Source of the DNA: Chloroflexota bacterium
GTDB taxonomy: Bacteria > Chloroflexota > Limnocylindria > Limnocylindrales > CSP1-4
DNA: 39,984 nt
Direction of reading: 5' to 3'
Assembly: GCA_005882635.1 (NCBI GenBank)
Contig: VBFG01000119.1
Location: 1-39,984 of the forward strand
Part shown: one piece after another, positions 24,371-30,504 of the stretch
How the letters are laid out: every line of letters starts with the position of its first letter
Position numbering within the stretch: position 1 is the stretch's first letter
Position numbers and translations under genes: made by a program
Notes under the pieces: model-generated
What the model was told of the DNA's origin: nothing
The model's database searches: none
What the model saw: the letters and a program-made list of their open reading frames with translations, nothing else

Positions 24371-24775
24371 ATGAAGCCGGTCTCCGTCCAGGTCATCACA
24401 TACGCGCCGACCATCTTCGCCCATTGCCAGCATTGCGAGCTGGCGTTCTCGGAGATGGGGATCGGCGAACGCCTGCGCCAGCGCGAGGCGGCGGAGGCCC
24501 TGCCCGACGACCTGCGGGAGGAGTACCAGGTCGTCTCCGACTGGGTCCACCGGCTCATCGACCGGCACGGCTCGAGGATCCGCGTGGACGTCCTCGACGC
24601 CGCGTCCATCCGCGGATTCGCCGCGTCACTCCGTCATCGCGTCGGGCGCTACCCGGCCGTCGTTGTCGACGGCCGCGAGACCTGGACCGGCCTTGACTTC
24701 GATGCTCCGGATGCCGCGATCGACCGGAGGGTCGGGGCGGCAGACCGCGGGCCGGTCGTACCGAGCGCTCCCTGA
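24371..24775 (+). CDS. Small thioredoxin-like protein with CxxC motif
   Basis: 134 residues from the ATG at 24371; an upstream in-frame start at 24338 lacks support. The N-terminal strand SVQVITYAPTIFAHC leads into CQHC, a CxxC pair positioned as in thioredoxin/glutaredoxin folds. A charged helical insert follows (LRQREAAEALPDDLREEYQV), then strand RIRVDVLDAAS and the segment RYPAVVVDGRETWTG, which resembles the cis-Pro loop of thioredoxin-like proteins. No signal peptide, so cytoplasmic. The family is not recognised by name. It ends 12 bases before cstA in the same direction, so they are probably co-transcribed; a redox or metal role linked to the transporter is speculation. Confidence 0.7.
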   Translation: MKPVSVQVITYAPTIFAHCQHCELAFSEMGIGERLRQREAAEALPDDLREEYQVVSDWVHRLIDRHGSRIRVDVLDAASIRGFAASLRHRVGRYPAVVVDGRETWTGLDFDAPDAAIDRRVGAADRGPVVPSAP

Positions 24776-24787
24776 CTGGAGGTGCCC

Positions 24788-26671
24788 ATGAGCTCCCTGT
24801 GGATCGTGGTCATCGGTGTCGTCGTCATCTACGCGGCGTACACGTTGTACGCCCGGCGGATCGACCGCACGGTGATCGCATCGGATCCCAACAAATCGAC
24901 GCCGGCCCGAATGTACATGGACGGCGCCGACTTCATGCCGACGAGCCGGTTCGTGCTGTACGGCTACCACTTCAAGTCGATCGCCGCAGCCGGGCCGATC
25001 GTCGGGGTGATCACCGCGGCAAACCTGTGGGGCTGGCTGCCGTCGATCCTGTGGCTGATGATCGGGGTCAGCTTCATCGGCTGGGCGAGCGACTACAGCG
25101 CGATCATGATGGCCGTCCGGAACGACGGGAACTCGCTCAGCGCGATCGCCCACCGGCTGATCTCGCCGCGGACGCGGCGGATCCTGTTCGTGTTCATCTT
25201 CTTCTACCTGCTGCTGATCGCCGGCGCCTTCGTCGGGATCATGGCGGCAATCCTCGCCTCGCGGCCGGACGTGCCGTTCGGCATCCTCGTGCTCGCGATC
25301 ATGGGCTTGTTCGGGGGATACGCGATCTACCGGATGCGGATGAGCATCATCGGGGTCACGATCCTGACCGTCGGGCTGACGATCGCGGCCATGGCGCTCG
25401 GGCCGCTCGGGGCGACGTTCGAGACGGGCAAGGCGCCGAACTGGTCGACGGCGCCGATCGCCGGGGCCGTCAACTCGTTCAACACGTCGATCAATGCCGG
25501 TCCGCTCTGGACCACGGTCGACCCGACGAATGCCGATCCGCGGATCCCGGCGCCCGGAGCCGACGGCAAGAGGCCAACCACGCCCGCGTACAACGCAGCG
25601 AGCGGGGAGATCAACATCCTGCCGAGCTTCCTGCTCGCGTCGCTGCTCCTGCTGATCTTCAGTTACATCGGCGCGAACACGGCGATCTGGAGGTTCGCCC
25701 AACCGGTCAACTACATCGGGTTCTGGATCACGGCGATCGTCATCCTGGTCAGCGCGGTCGGCGCCGTCCTGGCGCCGTTCACGAACGCGAGCGTCGCGGC
25801 GTTCAAGGTCGATGCGTTCAAGGGCTTCGCGCCGACGATCGCGGGAGGCGCCCTCCAGCCGCTCTGGCCGATGCTGTTTGTGACCATCGCCTGCGGCGCC
25901 ATCTCGGGCTGGCATGCCCTGTTCGGCTCGGTCGGGACCGCCCGCCAGCTCGAATACGAAACCGACGCGTTGCCGGTCGGCGGCGGGGCGATGTTCTCGG
26001 AGAACACGCTGGGGCTCTTGTCGCTGACGGCCGTTGCGATCGCCGGCGGCGCAGGCGCGGGTGCGTTCGCCGCGGGCGTCGGGAACCTGATCAACGTCGC
26101 CTCGTTCGGGGCGATCGGCGTCCCGTTCGGAACCGCGCTCGGCTTCGGCGCGTTCGTCGTGATCGTGCTGACGGTCGTTCAGCTGGTCTTCCGCGTCATG
26201 CGCGTCACGCTCGGCGAGTGGCTCGGCGATCGCTGGGTCGGCTTCAAGAACCAGCACGTCGCGTCGGTGACCGGCATGGTGCTGTCGATGGCGCTGGTTC
26301 TCTCGGGGACGTGGGTCTACCTGTGGCAGCTGTTCGGCGCGTCCAACCAGCTGCTGGCCGCTCTCAGCCTGCTCCTCGTAACGGTCTGGCTGCGGTCGGT
26401 CGGAAAGAACCCGGCCTACGCCGGCATCCCGATGGTGTTCATGTACGTGACCACGATGGCCGCCACGGTCGTCACCGCGTACAACCTCTTCGTGACGATC
26501 GCGACCCGCCCCGGCCAGGCGCTGATCTCCGTGCTCGGCGCCTGGGCGATGGTCGCCGTCTCGATCCTGCTGCTCGTCGCCGCGGCGTTGATCGCGTGGG
26601 ACGCGTGGCAGGCGTGGAACCGCTATCGGACGGCGCCGCCGGAGGAGGCGCGCGTCCCGACCGCGGCCTGA
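24788..26671 (+). CDS. cstA: Carbon starvation protein CstA-type transporter
   Basis: A 627-residue polytopic membrane protein. The conserved CstA motif appears as GYHFKSIAAAGPIVGVITAA, followed by WASDYSAIMMAVRNDG and, later, GWHALFGSVGTARQLEYETDA. More than a dozen hydrophobic segments are visible. CstA proteins import peptides and pyruvate at the cytoplasmic membrane, often under carbon limitation. The start is the ATG at 24788, with GGAGG 5 bases upstream; a GTG at 24782 overlaps that site and is rejected. A strong hairpin 23 bases after the stop ends the transcript. The preceding small CxxC gene is probably in the same operon. Confidence 0.9.
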   Translation: MSSLWIVVIGVVVIYAAYTLYARRIDRTVIASDPNKSTPARMYMDGADFMPTSRFVLYGYHFKSIAAAGPIVGVITAANLWGWLPSILWLMIGVSFIGWASDYSAIMMAVRNDGNSLSAIAHRLISPRTRRILFVFIFFYLLLIAGAFVGIMAAILASRPDVPFGILVLAIMGLFGGYAIYRMRMSIIGVTILTVGLTIAAMALGPLGATFETGKAPNWSTAPIAGAVNSFNTSINAGPLWTTVDPTNADPRIPAPGADGKRPTTPAYNAASGEINILPSFLLASLLLLIFSYIGANTAIWRFAQPVNYIGFWITAIVILVSAVGAVLAPFTNASVAAFKVDAFKGFAPTIAGGALQPLWPMLFVTIACGAISGWHALFGSVGTARQLEYETDALPVGGGAMFSENTLGLLSLTAVAIAGGAGAGAFAAGVGNLINVASFGAIGVPFGTALGFGAFVVIVLTVVQLVFRVMRVTLGEWLGDRWVGFKNQHVASVTGMVLSMALVLSGTWVYLWQLFGASNQLLAALSLLLVTVWLRSVGKNPAYAGIPMVFMYVTTMAATVVTAYNLFVTIATRPGQALISVLGAWAMVAVSILLLVAAALIAWDAWQAWNRYRTAPPEEARVPTAA

Positions 26672-26728: not shown

Positions 26729-27400
26729 TCAGCGCTGGGTGAGGGTCGCGGCGAGCTGCCGGATCGGGGTCAGGAGCGCGTCGGCGCCGACGGGCCTGTC
26801 GCCGGCGGGGCGGACATGAACCTCCAGGTGCGGCACGACCGGCTGGACGGTCAGCTTCCAGACGCCACCGCTCGCTGCGCCGAGCGCCTCCCACGTCGAG
26901 CGGATGGCCGCCTCGTCCGCACCCGGGCCGGCGACGGCGACGCATCCTCCTGGCCAGTCGAGGCGGTGCCAGCCGGTCTCCCCGCCGCCGTTCGTCGCCT
27001 GATCGTGCCCGTCCGCCCGACCTGTCCAAGTGCGCGGGTCCCGGACCTCCATGCTGAACCGCGGGGGCCGGACGAGGCTGGCGCGGACGATCAGGAAGTC
27101 GCGCCGGCCGCGCCAGCGAGCAAACGCCCACAGCAGGCTGACGTCGCGCGGCTCGAGCACGGCCAGGACGGTCGCCTCCCGGAATGGCTCCGCCGGCTCG
27201 ACGATCCGGAGCTCCACCGCGGAGCTGCCGAGCCAGCGGAGCGTCGTCCGGCGGCCAAGGAGCGGCAGGCCGCGCTGCAGCCAGCGCAGCAGGTCGTTGC
27301 CGATCCGGATGTTGCGTTGCGTCCCCAGCGCGAACCACAACATCACGAACAGGATCAAGCCGATCGCGATCGACGGTCCGAACGCCTCGAGCGGGGGCAT
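26729..27400 (-). CDS. Membrane-anchored protein of unknown function, divergent from the ArsA-like cluster
   Basis: 223 residues from the ATG at 27400. A longer start at 27442 would run into the divergent gene, so I prefer the ATG. One hydrophobic segment (about residues 8-25, PSIAIGLILFVMLWFALG) is followed by NIRIGNDLLRWLQRGLPLLG and a soluble, Trp-containing domain (WRGRRDFLIVRASLVRPPRF, TGWHRLDWPGG) that would face the cytoplasm if the N-terminus is outside. No family recognised. Its start codon is only 11 bases from that of the first small gene of the ArsA-like cluster, which suggests shared control and possibly a shared function. Confidence 0.65.
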   Translation of the reverse strand: MPPLEAFGPSIAIGLILFVMLWFALGTQRNIRIGNDLLRWLQRGLPLLGRRTTLRWLGSSAVELRIVEPAEPFREATVLAVLEPRDVSLLWAFARWRGRRDFLIVRASLVRPPRFSMEVRDPRTWTGRADGHDQATNGGGETGWHRLDWPGGCVAVAGPGADEAAIRSTWEALGAASGGVWKLTVQPVVPHLEVHVRPAGDRPVGADALLTPIRQLAATLTQR

Positions 27401-27411
27401 ACAAGAACGGT

Positions 27412-27708
27412 ATGAACGAGCAGGTTCGCGGTCAACGCTCATCCGGCCTTCGCGCCGCCCTCCGCGAGTTCGCCTACGGGATGACGGGCTACGAGTTCGC
27501 CCGGCATGCCATCGAGACCCGGGCGGCGCTCGAGAACCTGTTCATGGTCGTCGTCGTCGGCGACATGATCGGCGTGCCGGTGATCCCGCCGTACTACTCG
27601 CTGCGCCTGCTGCCCCTCGTGACGCCCGACATCGTCCGGTGGAAGCGGCGCGTCCTCCGCGAGCGCGACTTCACCGATCTCCACGACCATCACCTGCACG
27701 GGGTCTGA
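27412..27708 (+). CDS. Small conserved protein A of the paired ArsA-like system
   Basis: 98 residues, family not recognised. The core (17-89) reads LRE..YGM......RHA..TRA, then LF, a hydrophobic run MVVVVGDMIGVPVIP, PPYYSLRLLP and WKRRVLRERD. The hydrophobic stretch at about 43-70 may be a membrane-inserting hairpin or amphipathic element interrupted by GDM and PP. By hand count about 43 of 73 core residues are identical to the next gene product. The start is the ATG at 27412; longer in-frame starts lie antisense to the divergent gene. The gap to the paralogue is 20 bases, then the two ArsA-like ATPases follow, so a four-gene operon is likely. A role as partner or client of the ATPases is inferred from context only. 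Confidence 0.75.
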   Translation: MNEQVRGQRSSGLRAALREFAYGMTGYEFARHAIETRAALENLFMVVVVGDMIGVPVIPPYYSLRLLPLVTPDIVRWKRRVLRERDFTDLHDHHLHGV

Positions 27709-27728
27709 GGACCCAGGAAGGAGCTCCC

Positions 27729-28040
27729 ATGCCCGACGATCCCCGACCCGCCGAGCCCGGGGCGAAGGAGCCCAAGGAGCCCGGCCGCCTCAAGGGCATG
27801 CTCGGTCACCTCCGCGAGGTGACCTACGGGATGGCCGCCCATGACATGACTCGCCACGCGCTCCGGACGCGGGCCAGCATGGAGCACCTCTTCATCCTGA
27901 CGACGATGGGCGACATGCTGGGCGTGCCGATCCTGCCGCCCTACTATTCGCTCCGCCTGCTCCCGTACGCCGTCCCCCAGATCGCGACCTGGAAGCGCCG
28001 GATGCTCCGTGAGAAGGACCTCACGGACGCGATGTTCTGA
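27729..28040 (+). CDS. Small conserved protein B, paralogue of protein A
   Basis: 103 residues. A charged, Pro-rich N-terminal tail (about 1-22) is followed by the same core as protein A (28-100): LREVTYGM, TRHALRTRA, LFILTTMGDMLGVPILP, PPYYSLRLLP, WKRRMLREKDLTD. The invariant GDM-x-GVP-x-x-PPYYSLRLLP block suggests a specific binding surface rather than a generic membrane helix. GGAAGGAG lies 6 bases before the ATG at 27729. The stop is 2 bases before the GTG of the first ATPase, so expression is probably coupled. Function unknown; two diverged copies beside two diverged ATPases suggest one small protein per ATPase subunit. Confidence 0.78.
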   Translation: MPDDPRPAEPGAKEPKEPGRLKGMLGHLREVTYGMAAHDMTRHALRTRASMEHLFILTTMGDMLGVPILPPYYSLRLLPYAVPQIATWKRRMLREKDLTDAMF

Positions 28041-28042
28041 TC

Positions 28043-29071
28043 GTGGCGACGCAACCGGCCGTGGGCTCACCCGACCGCCCGGCGGCGACCGGCTCGACCC
28101 AGCTGGCGGCCACGTTCCGCGACCACCCCGAGCGGCAGTACGTGATGTTCGGCGGCAAGGGCGGCCTCGGGAAGACGACCTTCTCGGCCGCCACCGCGTG
28201 GTGGCTGGCCCAGCAGGGCAAGAAGGTCCTCGTGTTCTCGGTCGACCCGCAGGCGAGCCTGTCCGACATCTTCCAGCAGGACATCTTCGGCAAGGGCCCG
28301 GTCAAGATCACCGACAACCTGTGGGCCCAGGAGATCGACGCCGACCGCCACATCCGCGAATACCAGGACGAGGTCCGCCAGAAGATCCGCGACATGTACG
28401 GCCTGGACGAGGTCCCGCCCGAGATCGAGGATTACATCCAGGCCACCTCGGCAGAGCCGGCAATGGAGGAGTCGGCGATCTTCGACTCGGTCGTCGACAT
28501 CGTCAACCAGGGCGACTACGACTACTACATCTACGACCTCGTCCCGCTCGGCCACGCCCTCTACTACCTGTCGATGGCCAAGGTCTACGACGAGTGGATC
28601 GGCAAGATCACGAAGCTCCGCGAGCAGATGCGGGAGTACGAAGAAGTCGCCGCGCGGATGAAGCGCCAGAAGGAGGTCGACGAGGACGAGATCCTCAAGG
28701 AGCTCCAGTTCATCCGAGGCCGGATCAACAGCGCGTCGCGGATCCTGACCGACCGGACGAAGACCGCCTTCTACTTCGTCGTCATCCCCGAGCAGATGAT
28801 CCTGATCGACACGAAGAAGGCGGCCGAGCTGTTCGCCCGGTTCGACGTCCCGATCGGCGGCTATGTCGTCAACCGGGTCATCCCCGAGGAGCTCGGCGAG
28901 CAGCAGATCCCGGCCTATCTCCGCAACCGGATCGCCATGCAGAAGAGAGAGCTGGACCAGATCCGGGGAGCGTTCGGGAACCAGGTCCTCGGCTACGTGC
29001 CCGAGCTGGAGCGCGACGTCACCGGGCTGCCGATGATCGAGCGCGTCGCCGGCCTGCTCTACGGGTCATGA
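28043..29071 (+). CDS. ArsA/Get3-like ATPase, subunit 1 (switch I Asp kept, switch II altered)
   Basis: A 342-residue SIMIBI-class P-loop ATPase. The deviant Walker A GGKGGLGKTT is at 37-46. Switch I reads SVDPQASLSDIF with the catalytic Asp at 68. Switch II reads DLVPLGHALYY (from D165) in place of the family DTAPTGHTLR. ArsA/Get3 proteins are dimers that couple ATP hydrolysis to anion efflux or delivery of hydrophobic proteins. No arsenite-binding Cys triad and no Get3-type CxxC zinc motif are seen, so arsenite export or eukaryote-type tail-anchor insertion should not be assumed. GTG start at 28043. The next gene is a paralogue, and a heterodimer is likely; mycobacteria also have a paired ArsA/Get3-like locus (Rv3679-Rv3680, from memory). 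Confidence 0.88.
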   Translation: MATQPAVGSPDRPAATGSTQLAATFRDHPERQYVMFGGKGGLGKTTFSAATAWWLAQQGKKVLVFSVDPQASLSDIFQQDIFGKGPVKITDNLWAQEIDADRHIREYQDEVRQKIRDMYGLDEVPPEIEDYIQATSAEPAMEESAIFDSVVDIVNQGDYDYYIYDLVPLGHALYYLSMAKVYDEWIGKITKLREQMREYEEVAARMKRQKEVDEDEILKELQFIRGRINSASRILTDRTKTAFYFVVIPEQMILIDTKKAAELFARFDVPIGGYVVNRVIPEELGEQQIPAYLRNRIAMQKRELDQIRGAFGNQVLGYVPELERDVTGLPMIERVAGLLYGS

Positions 29072-29081
29072 GGAGCGCCCG

Positions 29082-30086
29082 ATGACGACGACCTCCGATC
29101 GCCCGACCGCCGACCTGGTCGAGACATCGATGGCCGACTTCGTGACCGGCCACCCCGGCCTCCGCTACGTCTTCTTCGGCGGCAAGGGGGGCGTCGGCAA
29201 GACCGTCATGGCGGGGATGAATGCGGTCCACCTGGCCCGATCCGGCAAGCGGACCCTGCTCGCCTCGACGAACCCCGTTCACTCGCTGTCGGGCCTGCTC
29301 GGCCAGGACGTCTTCGGCAAGCCGACGGCCGTGACCGGCATCGACAACCTCTGGGCCTACGAGATCGACACGCGCGACGCGATCGAGCGCTCGAAACGCG
29401 AGATCCGCGAGAAGATCCAGTGGTTCCTGAAGTTCGCCGAGATCTCCACCAAGGCCGACGAGTTCGTCGAGGCGGCCACGATGAACCCGGCGTTCGAGGA
29501 GTCGGCGATGTTCGAGAACATGGTCGACCTCATGTTCGAGGACGCCTACGACGTCTACGTCTTCGACACCGCCCCGACGGCCAACGCCCGACGCCTGCTC
29601 GGCATGTCGAAGGTATATGGCCTGTGGGTCGAGAAGATGCTGAAGTCCCGCGAGGAAGCGCAGACCCTGCGGGAGGCCCTGTCCTTCACGAAGAAGCAGG
29701 AAGACGACCCGCTGATGCTCTATCTCGTCGAGTTCCGGGAGCGGATCCGGCACGCCCGGGAGCTCCTGACCGATGCGGAGCGGACGGCGTTCTTCTTCGT
29801 GACCTTGCCGGAGGCCTTGCCGATCGCGGTCATCCGCCGGTTCATCGACTGGTTCACCGACTTCGGGATCCCGGTCGGCGGCGTCGTCGTGAACATGGTG
29901 ATCCGGCCCGAGGCCGGTGAGGCGTCGCCGGACTTCGTTCGGAACCGGATCGAGATGCAGTCTGGCTACCTCGACGAGATCGCCGAGCGGTTCCCCGGCC
30001 AGGTCCGGGCCGTCGTCCCGCTGTTCGATTCGGACGTCCGCGGCGTCCCGTCGATCGCCAAGGCAAGCGCGGCCGTCTTCGGCTGA
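29082..30086 (+). CDS. ArsA/Get3-like ATPase, subunit 2 (switch II kept, switch I Asp replaced by Asn)
   Basis: 334 residues, paralogous to the preceding ATPase along its length (both share NPAFEESAMF / EPAMEESAIF-type and GG-VVN motifs). Walker A is GGKGGVGKTV (33-42), with Val at the last position. Switch I is STNPVHSLS, with Asn 64 where the catalytic Asp normally sits. Switch II DTAPTANARRLL (from D162) is canonical. The likely result is a subunit that binds ATP but hydrolyses it poorly, complementing subunit 1. GAGGAGC lies 6 bases before the ATG at 29082, 10 bases after the stop of subunit 1. Last gene of the four-gene cluster. Confidence 0.88.
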   Translation: MTTTSDRPTADLVETSMADFVTGHPGLRYVFFGGKGGVGKTVMAGMNAVHLARSGKRTLLASTNPVHSLSGLLGQDVFGKPTAVTGIDNLWAYEIDTRDAIERSKREIREKIQWFLKFAEISTKADEFVEAATMNPAFEESAMFENMVDLMFEDAYDVYVFDTAPTANARRLLGMSKVYGLWVEKMLKSREEAQTLREALSFTKKQEDDPLMLYLVEFRERIRHARELLTDAERTAFFFVTLPEALPIAVIRRFIDWFTDFGIPVGGVVVNMVIRPEAGEASPDFVRNRIEMQSGYLDEIAERFPGQVRAVVPLFDSDVRGVPSIAKASAAVFG

Positions 30087-30427: not shown

Positions 30428-30504
30428 GGTGGCCTTAGCTCAATCGGTAGAGCACTGGATTGTGGCTCCAGAGGTCACGGGTTCGAACCCCGTAGGCCAC
30501 CCCA
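30428..30504 (+). tRNA. tRNA-His (anticodon GTG)
   Basis: Acceptor strands GTGGCCT and AGGCCAC pair over 7 bp. D arm GCTC/GAGC, anticodon arm CTGGA-TTGTGGC-TCCAG with anticodon GTG, variable loop AGGTC and T arm ACGGG-TTCGAAC-CCCGT are complete. An encoded G at 30428 (position -1) faces discriminator C73 (30501), the identity element of tRNA-His, and CCA is encoded at 30502-30504. Confidence 0.97.

Follow-up and report, generated by a model that had tools for sequence, protein, structure and literature searches.

A CstA-linked gene cluster of a Chloroflexota bacterium encodes two CstX-type small proteins and a putative asymmetric pair of ArsA/Get3-type ATPases

Introduction

The closest described relatives of the locus reported here are the operons of Castillo and Saier (2010; PMC2963123). 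In that account, ArsA homologues of about 330 amino acids are encoded in operons with CstA and with a protein of about 90 amino acids, CstX, and a protein of about 210 amino acids, CstY, is sometimes present in the same operons. Adjacent ArsA pairs and paired CstX are there described for two organisms each. CstX was proposed to act as a linker between ArsA and CstA, with ArsA energising CstA, and homodimers were suggested for the single-domain ArsA proteins of CstA operons. No later study of CstX was found in the literature that we searched.

Two better characterised systems provide points of comparison. Pyruvate uptake by Escherichia coli CstA requires YbdD, a small protein, and the system as described includes no ArsA (PMC5847655). 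In yeast Get3, residue D57 is essential for hydrolysis and a D57N substitution traps ATP (PMC12506534), and the Get3 signature lysine works across the dimer (PMC10248533).

Results

Organization of the cluster

The window is a stretch of 39,984 nucleotides from a Chloroflexota bacterium (GenBank assembly GCA_005882635.1, contig VBFG01000119.1), within which we examined four genes designated A, B, C and D together with their surroundings (Table 1). As described in an earlier note on this sequence, the four open reading frames lie on the same strand (+), are separated by 20, 2 and 10 bases, and form two tandem pairs of paralogues, A and B being 52% identical over 88 amino acids and C and D 39% identical over 336 amino acids. 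Cysteine is absent from all four proteins, so there is neither an arsenite Cys triad nor a zinc CxxC motif, and no arsB, acr3 or arsR is present among the neighbouring genes scanned; the note was correct in reporting the lack of the two cysteine motifs, arsB and arsR. On the same strand, about 740 bases 5' of gene A, is a gene for CstA. The cluster resembles the CstA-CstX-ArsA operons of the 2010 account in having CstA, a CstX of about 90 amino acids, a single-domain ArsA of about 330 amino acids, and no ars genes.

Table 1. Coordinates of the cluster and of selected ATPase motifs, in positions of the window.
Feature	Position	Strand	Basis
Thioredoxin-fold protein, HCQHC motif, head of cluster	24371..24775	+	Predicted fold
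CstA-family transporter (pyruvate/peptide permease family)	24782..26671	+	Pfam PF02554, E 3.1e-97
Divergent gene, 223 aa, hydrophobic N-terminus	26729..27400	-	Conserved beside module in Chloroflexota
Small protein A, second-type CstX, 98 aa	27412..27708	+	52% identity to B
Small protein B, core-type CstX, 103 aa, immediately 5' of ATPase C	27729..28040	+	
ATPase C, single-domain ArsA/Get3 type, 342 aa, GTG start	28043..29071	+	PF02374 4.8e-75
P-loop of C, GGKGGLGKT, deviant Walker A with signature Lys	28151..28177	+	Sequence, alignment
Switch-I Asp68 of C (yeast Get3 D57 equivalent)	28244..28246	+	
ATPase D, single-domain ArsA/Get3 type, 334 aa	29082..30086	+	PF02374 1.3e-66
P-loop of D, GGKGGVGKT	29178..29204	+	Sequence, alignment
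Switch-I Asn64 of D, Asp in canonical Get3/ArsA	29271..29273	+	

The divergent gene between CstA and gene A gave no match in Pfam or NCBIfam, and its relatives in archaeal loci are weaker matches. By size and position only, it is possibly the CstY of Castillo and Saier. Its start at position 27400 and that of gene A at 27412 leave 11 bases between the two start codons, and the same head-to-head pair is seen again in at least ten Chloroflexota loci. The protein at the head of the cluster was modelled (pLDDT 85.8, pTM 0.75), and comparison of the model with solved folds returned thioredoxins with a probability of 1.00 and a best E value of 3.5e-3. Its C-x-H-C motif is kept in Chloroflexota-type and Bathyarchaeota-type relatives. 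Relatives of this protein are present in 29 of the 68 paired-ATPase loci of the GTDB scan described below, with the cysteines lost in some of them. On the 3' side of the module is a tRNA-His gene (GTG; 30429-30504), beyond which are genes for a trypsin-like protease, a MoxR-type AAA ATPase, a DUF58 protein and a von Willebrand factor A protein.

The small proteins A and B

Neither A nor B belongs to a Pfam family. Against the NCBIfam model for cory-CC-star (NF041419) they score 33.1 and 32.9 bits, respectively, matching 55-58 positions, relative to a cut-off of 80, and whereas cory-CC-star proteins end in Cys-Cys, A ends in HGV and B in AMF. We regard A and B, for which the earlier note recognised no family, as CstX proteins and, from these sequence matches, as distant kin of cory-CC-star; the CstX identity is assigned from size, operon position and partners, all in agreement with the description of Castillo and Saier. 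The two proteins fall into one family (A3) of 60 members. With regard to the one transmembrane segment that is a feature of CstX, their most hydrophobic 19-residue segments have mean hydropathies of 1.87 (A) and 1.22 (B). An AlphaFold model of B (pLDDT 78.6, pTM 0.42) is all-helical, with one long helix (residues 20-64) and two shorter ones (71-81 and 83-102) around a conserved GxPxxPPYY region. Comparisons of CstX with the PDB and with solved folds gave no match, and a search for fusions of CstX to either the ATPases or CstA found none.

The CstX encoded directly before ATPase C, which we refer to as B-type, forms a clade spanning Bacteria and Archaea with a support of 0.997, and is the conserved one of the two; the second CstX (A in the window) is more variable. 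A third CstX gene is located straight after ATPase D in five loci of one Chloroflexota family (L042, L046, L053, L064 and L067). In a genome consisting of a single contig (G208; loci L061 and L062), CstA and a third CstX gene lie far from the A-B-C-D module and from each other.

The E. coli CstA-YbdD system likewise has a permease that depends on an adjacently encoded small protein (PMC5847655), but it has no ArsA, unlike the window. Common descent of CstX and YbdD was considered and rejected: hhalign gives a probability of 0.4% against PF04328, no relationship between the two proteins is detectable, and any equivalence would therefore be functional only. Of the CstA-positive Chloroflexota genomes, 28 were tested for PF04328 (YbdD/YjiX) and none has it; 24 of the 28 have CstX, and because the other four have CstA with neither small protein, mutual exclusivity of CstX and YbdD is only suggestive.

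Co-occurrence of CstX, CstA and the ATPases

A set of 251 Chloroflexota genomes was searched for CstX and the surroundings of the hits were inspected. CstX is present in 32 genomes and CstA in 34, with both in 30 (Fisher 4e-32); two genomes have CstX without CstA, and four have CstA without CstX. The order CstA-small-small-C-D recurs in Chloroflexota, where both ATPases are found, with the gene order conserved, at 27 loci, the window included, and CstA is in the same stretch at 23 of these. The recurrence of the A-B-C-D order across loci indicates that the arrangement is not due to chance.

A CstX alignment was also used to scan the species genomes of GTDB; 461 relatives were confirmed, of which the best 80 were analysed, and this set partly overlaps the Chloroflexota set. 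Both ATPases are present, again with the gene order conserved, at 68 loci among these best 80, 58 of them with CstA. Most of the paired loci lacking CstA are cut by contig ends, and two (L121 and L143) have 8-10 kb of upstream DNA without CstA. The transporter gene is unlinked from the module in G171, G192 and G208. The best 80 of the 461 come from Chloroflexota, Firmicutes (Symbiobacterium and others), Deltaproteobacteria, Rokubacteria and Gemmatimonadetes among the bacteria, and from Euryarchaeota, Thaumarchaeota, Bathyarchaeota and Asgard archaea. In one archaeal phylum (n=29) the identical 14 genomes have CstX and CstA (P 1e-8), and among the CstX-positive genomes of two bacterial phyla CstA is found in 21 of 22 and in 10 of 10. 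At the level of gene content, CstX and CstA thus co-occur and the genes of the cluster are members of this gene set. The finding that the earlier note had named as counting against its reading, small proteins widespread without ArsA-like neighbours, was not made; the lone CstX genes encountered are additional copies, copies unlinked to the module, or genes on short contigs. A plasmid collection contained no CstX match. Plasmid matches to ArsA and CstA proved to be arsenic operons or CstA genes without CstX.

Split catalytic motifs in ATPases C and D

C and D both match Pfam ArsA_ATPase (5e-75 and 1e-66), and the nearest solved structures are archaeal Get3-type proteins, with an E value of 6e-64 to an archaeal Get3 relative. 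They score 98 and 104 bits against the two-domain ArsA model (TIGR04291), for which the cut-off is 650, and do not have the Cys triad of the ArsA arsenite pump. In mycobacteria, BagA and BagB (Rv3679/Rv3680) are likewise ArsA-like proteins encoded by a pair of genes, and the structure of their complex has been solved with two chains (6bs3); C and D score far below the NCBIfam cut-offs for BagA and BagB (57.5/43.1 against 400 bits and 38.0/36.7 against 521 bits). The genome encodes a third ArsA homologue (C130:2554-3450, locus L152). It has a canonical switch I, STDIAHSLAD, in which the Asp is kept, and carries a C-terminal extension within the same open reading frame.

The fold with a deviant Walker A motif is shared with Get3/TRC40 and ArsA, and the motif and its signature lysine are kept in both C and D, but the zinc CxxC of Get3/TRC40 is missing from both. 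The catalytic Asp of switch I is present in C and replaced by Asn in D, the window sequences being DPQASLSD and NPVHSLSG, respectively, and in alignment with Methanocaldococcus jannaschii Get3 (3ug6) the position of this Asn is occupied by Asp. All 100 relatives of C have Asp, in the sequence D-P-Q-A-S-L, and all 92 relatives of D have Asn, in N-P-[VI]-H-S-[LI]. Switch II differs correspondingly: C proteins have D[LM]xPxGH (or DMMPHGH) and D proteins DTA/DCA-xx-A-N/H, such that, relative to the canonical DTAPTGHT, C retains GH and not DTAPT, whereas D retains DTA (or DCA) with A-N or A-H in place of G-H. The motifs of C and D are thus complementary and fixed, and catalytic elements that Get3 and ArsA proteins hold together are divided here between two proteins.

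In a phylogenetic tree C proteins and D proteins each form a clade (0.999/1.0) to the exclusion of the other, each clade spans Bacteria and Archaea, and the two are sisters (0.991), which points to one old duplication followed by opposite losses that have been kept since. Tree distances of C and D are correlated (0.953), as would be expected of any co-inherited operon. Taken together with the co-inheritance of CstX and the ATPases, the complementary motifs support the proposal of the earlier note that these genes encode a heteromeric ATPase complex of dedicated function in which the small proteins are partners.

CstX number and loci with a single ATPase

Two or three CstX genes are present in 29 of the 32 CstX-positive Chloroflexota genomes, nine of which have three, and all 14 positive genomes of the archaeal phylum have exactly two, sometimes unlinked. 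A single CstX is found in seven genomes of the paired class (G254, G255, G257, G261, G383, G391 and G405), most of them drafts. Two CstX per genome is thus the usual, not the universal, state in the paired class.

At ten other loci (L222-L231) a single, more distant CstX is encoded beside a single ArsA-type ATPase. These ATPases branch outside the C plus D clade and have an intact switch-I Asp in 10 of 10; the switch II motif is canonical in three of them (L222-L224) and partly canonical in the other seven. The CstX of L222-L224 ends in Trp-Cys-Cys (WCC), which suggests from sequence that these are true CC-star proteins. CstA is not next door at these three loci and is present elsewhere in the genome. 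The idea of a separate small partner for each ATPase agrees with the usual counts, two CstX with two ATPases as against one with one, but not with the three or one CstX of some paired genomes, and these exceptions make it a fair hypothesis and not a rule.

Discussion

The locus almost certainly belongs to the CstA-CstX-ArsA system, and on balance we favour the interpretation that its four genes provide the ATPase-and-adaptor half of that system, with C and D as an asymmetric heterodimer coupled to transport via CstX. The pattern of motif loss makes it probable that C pairs with D in an obligate heterodimer in which one site is dead. In the mechanism we propose, the permease would be the CstA encoded at 24782-26671, and C and D would pair as an obligate asymmetric heterodimer in which the C site, with its switch-I Asp, hydrolyses ATP, and the D site, with Asn, binds ATP without hydrolysing it and serves as a structural ATP site, as in Get3 D57N. 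Two CstX would bind both the C/D dimer and CstA and relay the opening and closing of C/D to the transporter, thereby energising or gating the import of a small carboxylate or a peptide. Whether ATP use drives transport, instead of merely gating it, we consider an even question.

A plausible alternative, to which we give a somewhat less than even chance, is that C and D are not part of a pump but form a slow nucleotide switch, acting via CstX on an ion-coupled CstA and following the energy state. Carriers of the CstA family, BtsT for example, are H+ symporters; CstA of E. coli functions without ArsA, so that CstA transport has no general need of an ATPase. Yeast Get3 is a slow ATPase, at about 1.3 per min (PMC10248533), and one fixed hydrolysis-dead site would suit a switch. 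Against this, ArsA-ArsB is a precedent for energising, and the present evidence fits gating and energising alike.

Biogenesis of the Get3 kind, with C and D chaperoning the hydrophobic CstX, or CstA, into the membrane, seems unlikely. It would accord with archaeal Get3-type proteins being the closest solved relatives and with CstX being small, helical and moderately hydrophobic. However, C and D lack the CxxC motif and indeed any cysteine; their helical subdomain is shorter than that of M. jannaschii Get3, with three Met compared with nine; CstX is conserved as much as the ATPases are, and its hydrophobic stretch is not C-terminal; and a chaperone with one client has no need of a split ATPase. 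Viewed as a counterpart of the hydrophobic TRC40 insert for tail anchors, the subdomain is short and poor in Met but has a similar mean hydropathy. The functions preferred in the earlier note, membrane-protein handling or metabolite detoxification, are not supported, and the neighbouring CstA, which the note had overlooked, suggests transport.

We also think it improbable that C and D assemble separately, as C2 and D2 homodimers with distinct tasks, although Castillo and Saier suggested homodimers for single-domain ArsA of CstA operons. Neither C nor D has the full set of catalytic motifs and the split is fixed in all pairs; the two occur together in a fixed order; and the single-ATPase relatives, which must self-associate, retain the switch-I Asp. 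Efflux of arsenite or another metalloid is suggested by the name of the ArsA family only and is very improbable given proteins A to D devoid of Cys, the lack of arsB, acr3 and arsR among the scanned neighbours, and CstA as the conserved partner.

Returning to the heterodimer coupled to CstA, we propose tentatively, and with slightly less than even confidence in the whole sequence of events, that an ATPase of the Get3/ArsA class was duplicated once before its spread across Bacteria and Archaea and became an obligate heterodimer with a dead, D57N-like site, that CstX was duplicated alongside, and that the complex energises or gates CstA. We found no prior description of the Asp/Asn split of the ATPase pair, which, with its link to the CstX duplication, is the new element; relative to the Castillo and Saier account, the complementary motif loss and the comparison of paired with single ATPases are additions, as the thioredoxin-fold gene appears to be.

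The fixed Asp/Asn split offers a sharp mutational test of the idea that ArsA energises CstA, and C and D would be a natural asymmetric ATPase of the Get3/ArsA type, resembling ABC transporters in which one of the sites is degenerate. CstX, now mostly annotated as hypothetical, gains a testable role across Chloroflexota, Firmicutes, Deltaproteobacteria, Asgard archaea and Bathyarchaeota. If the proposal is true, CstA, supposedly a secondary transporter, would be under the control of ATP in these lineages.
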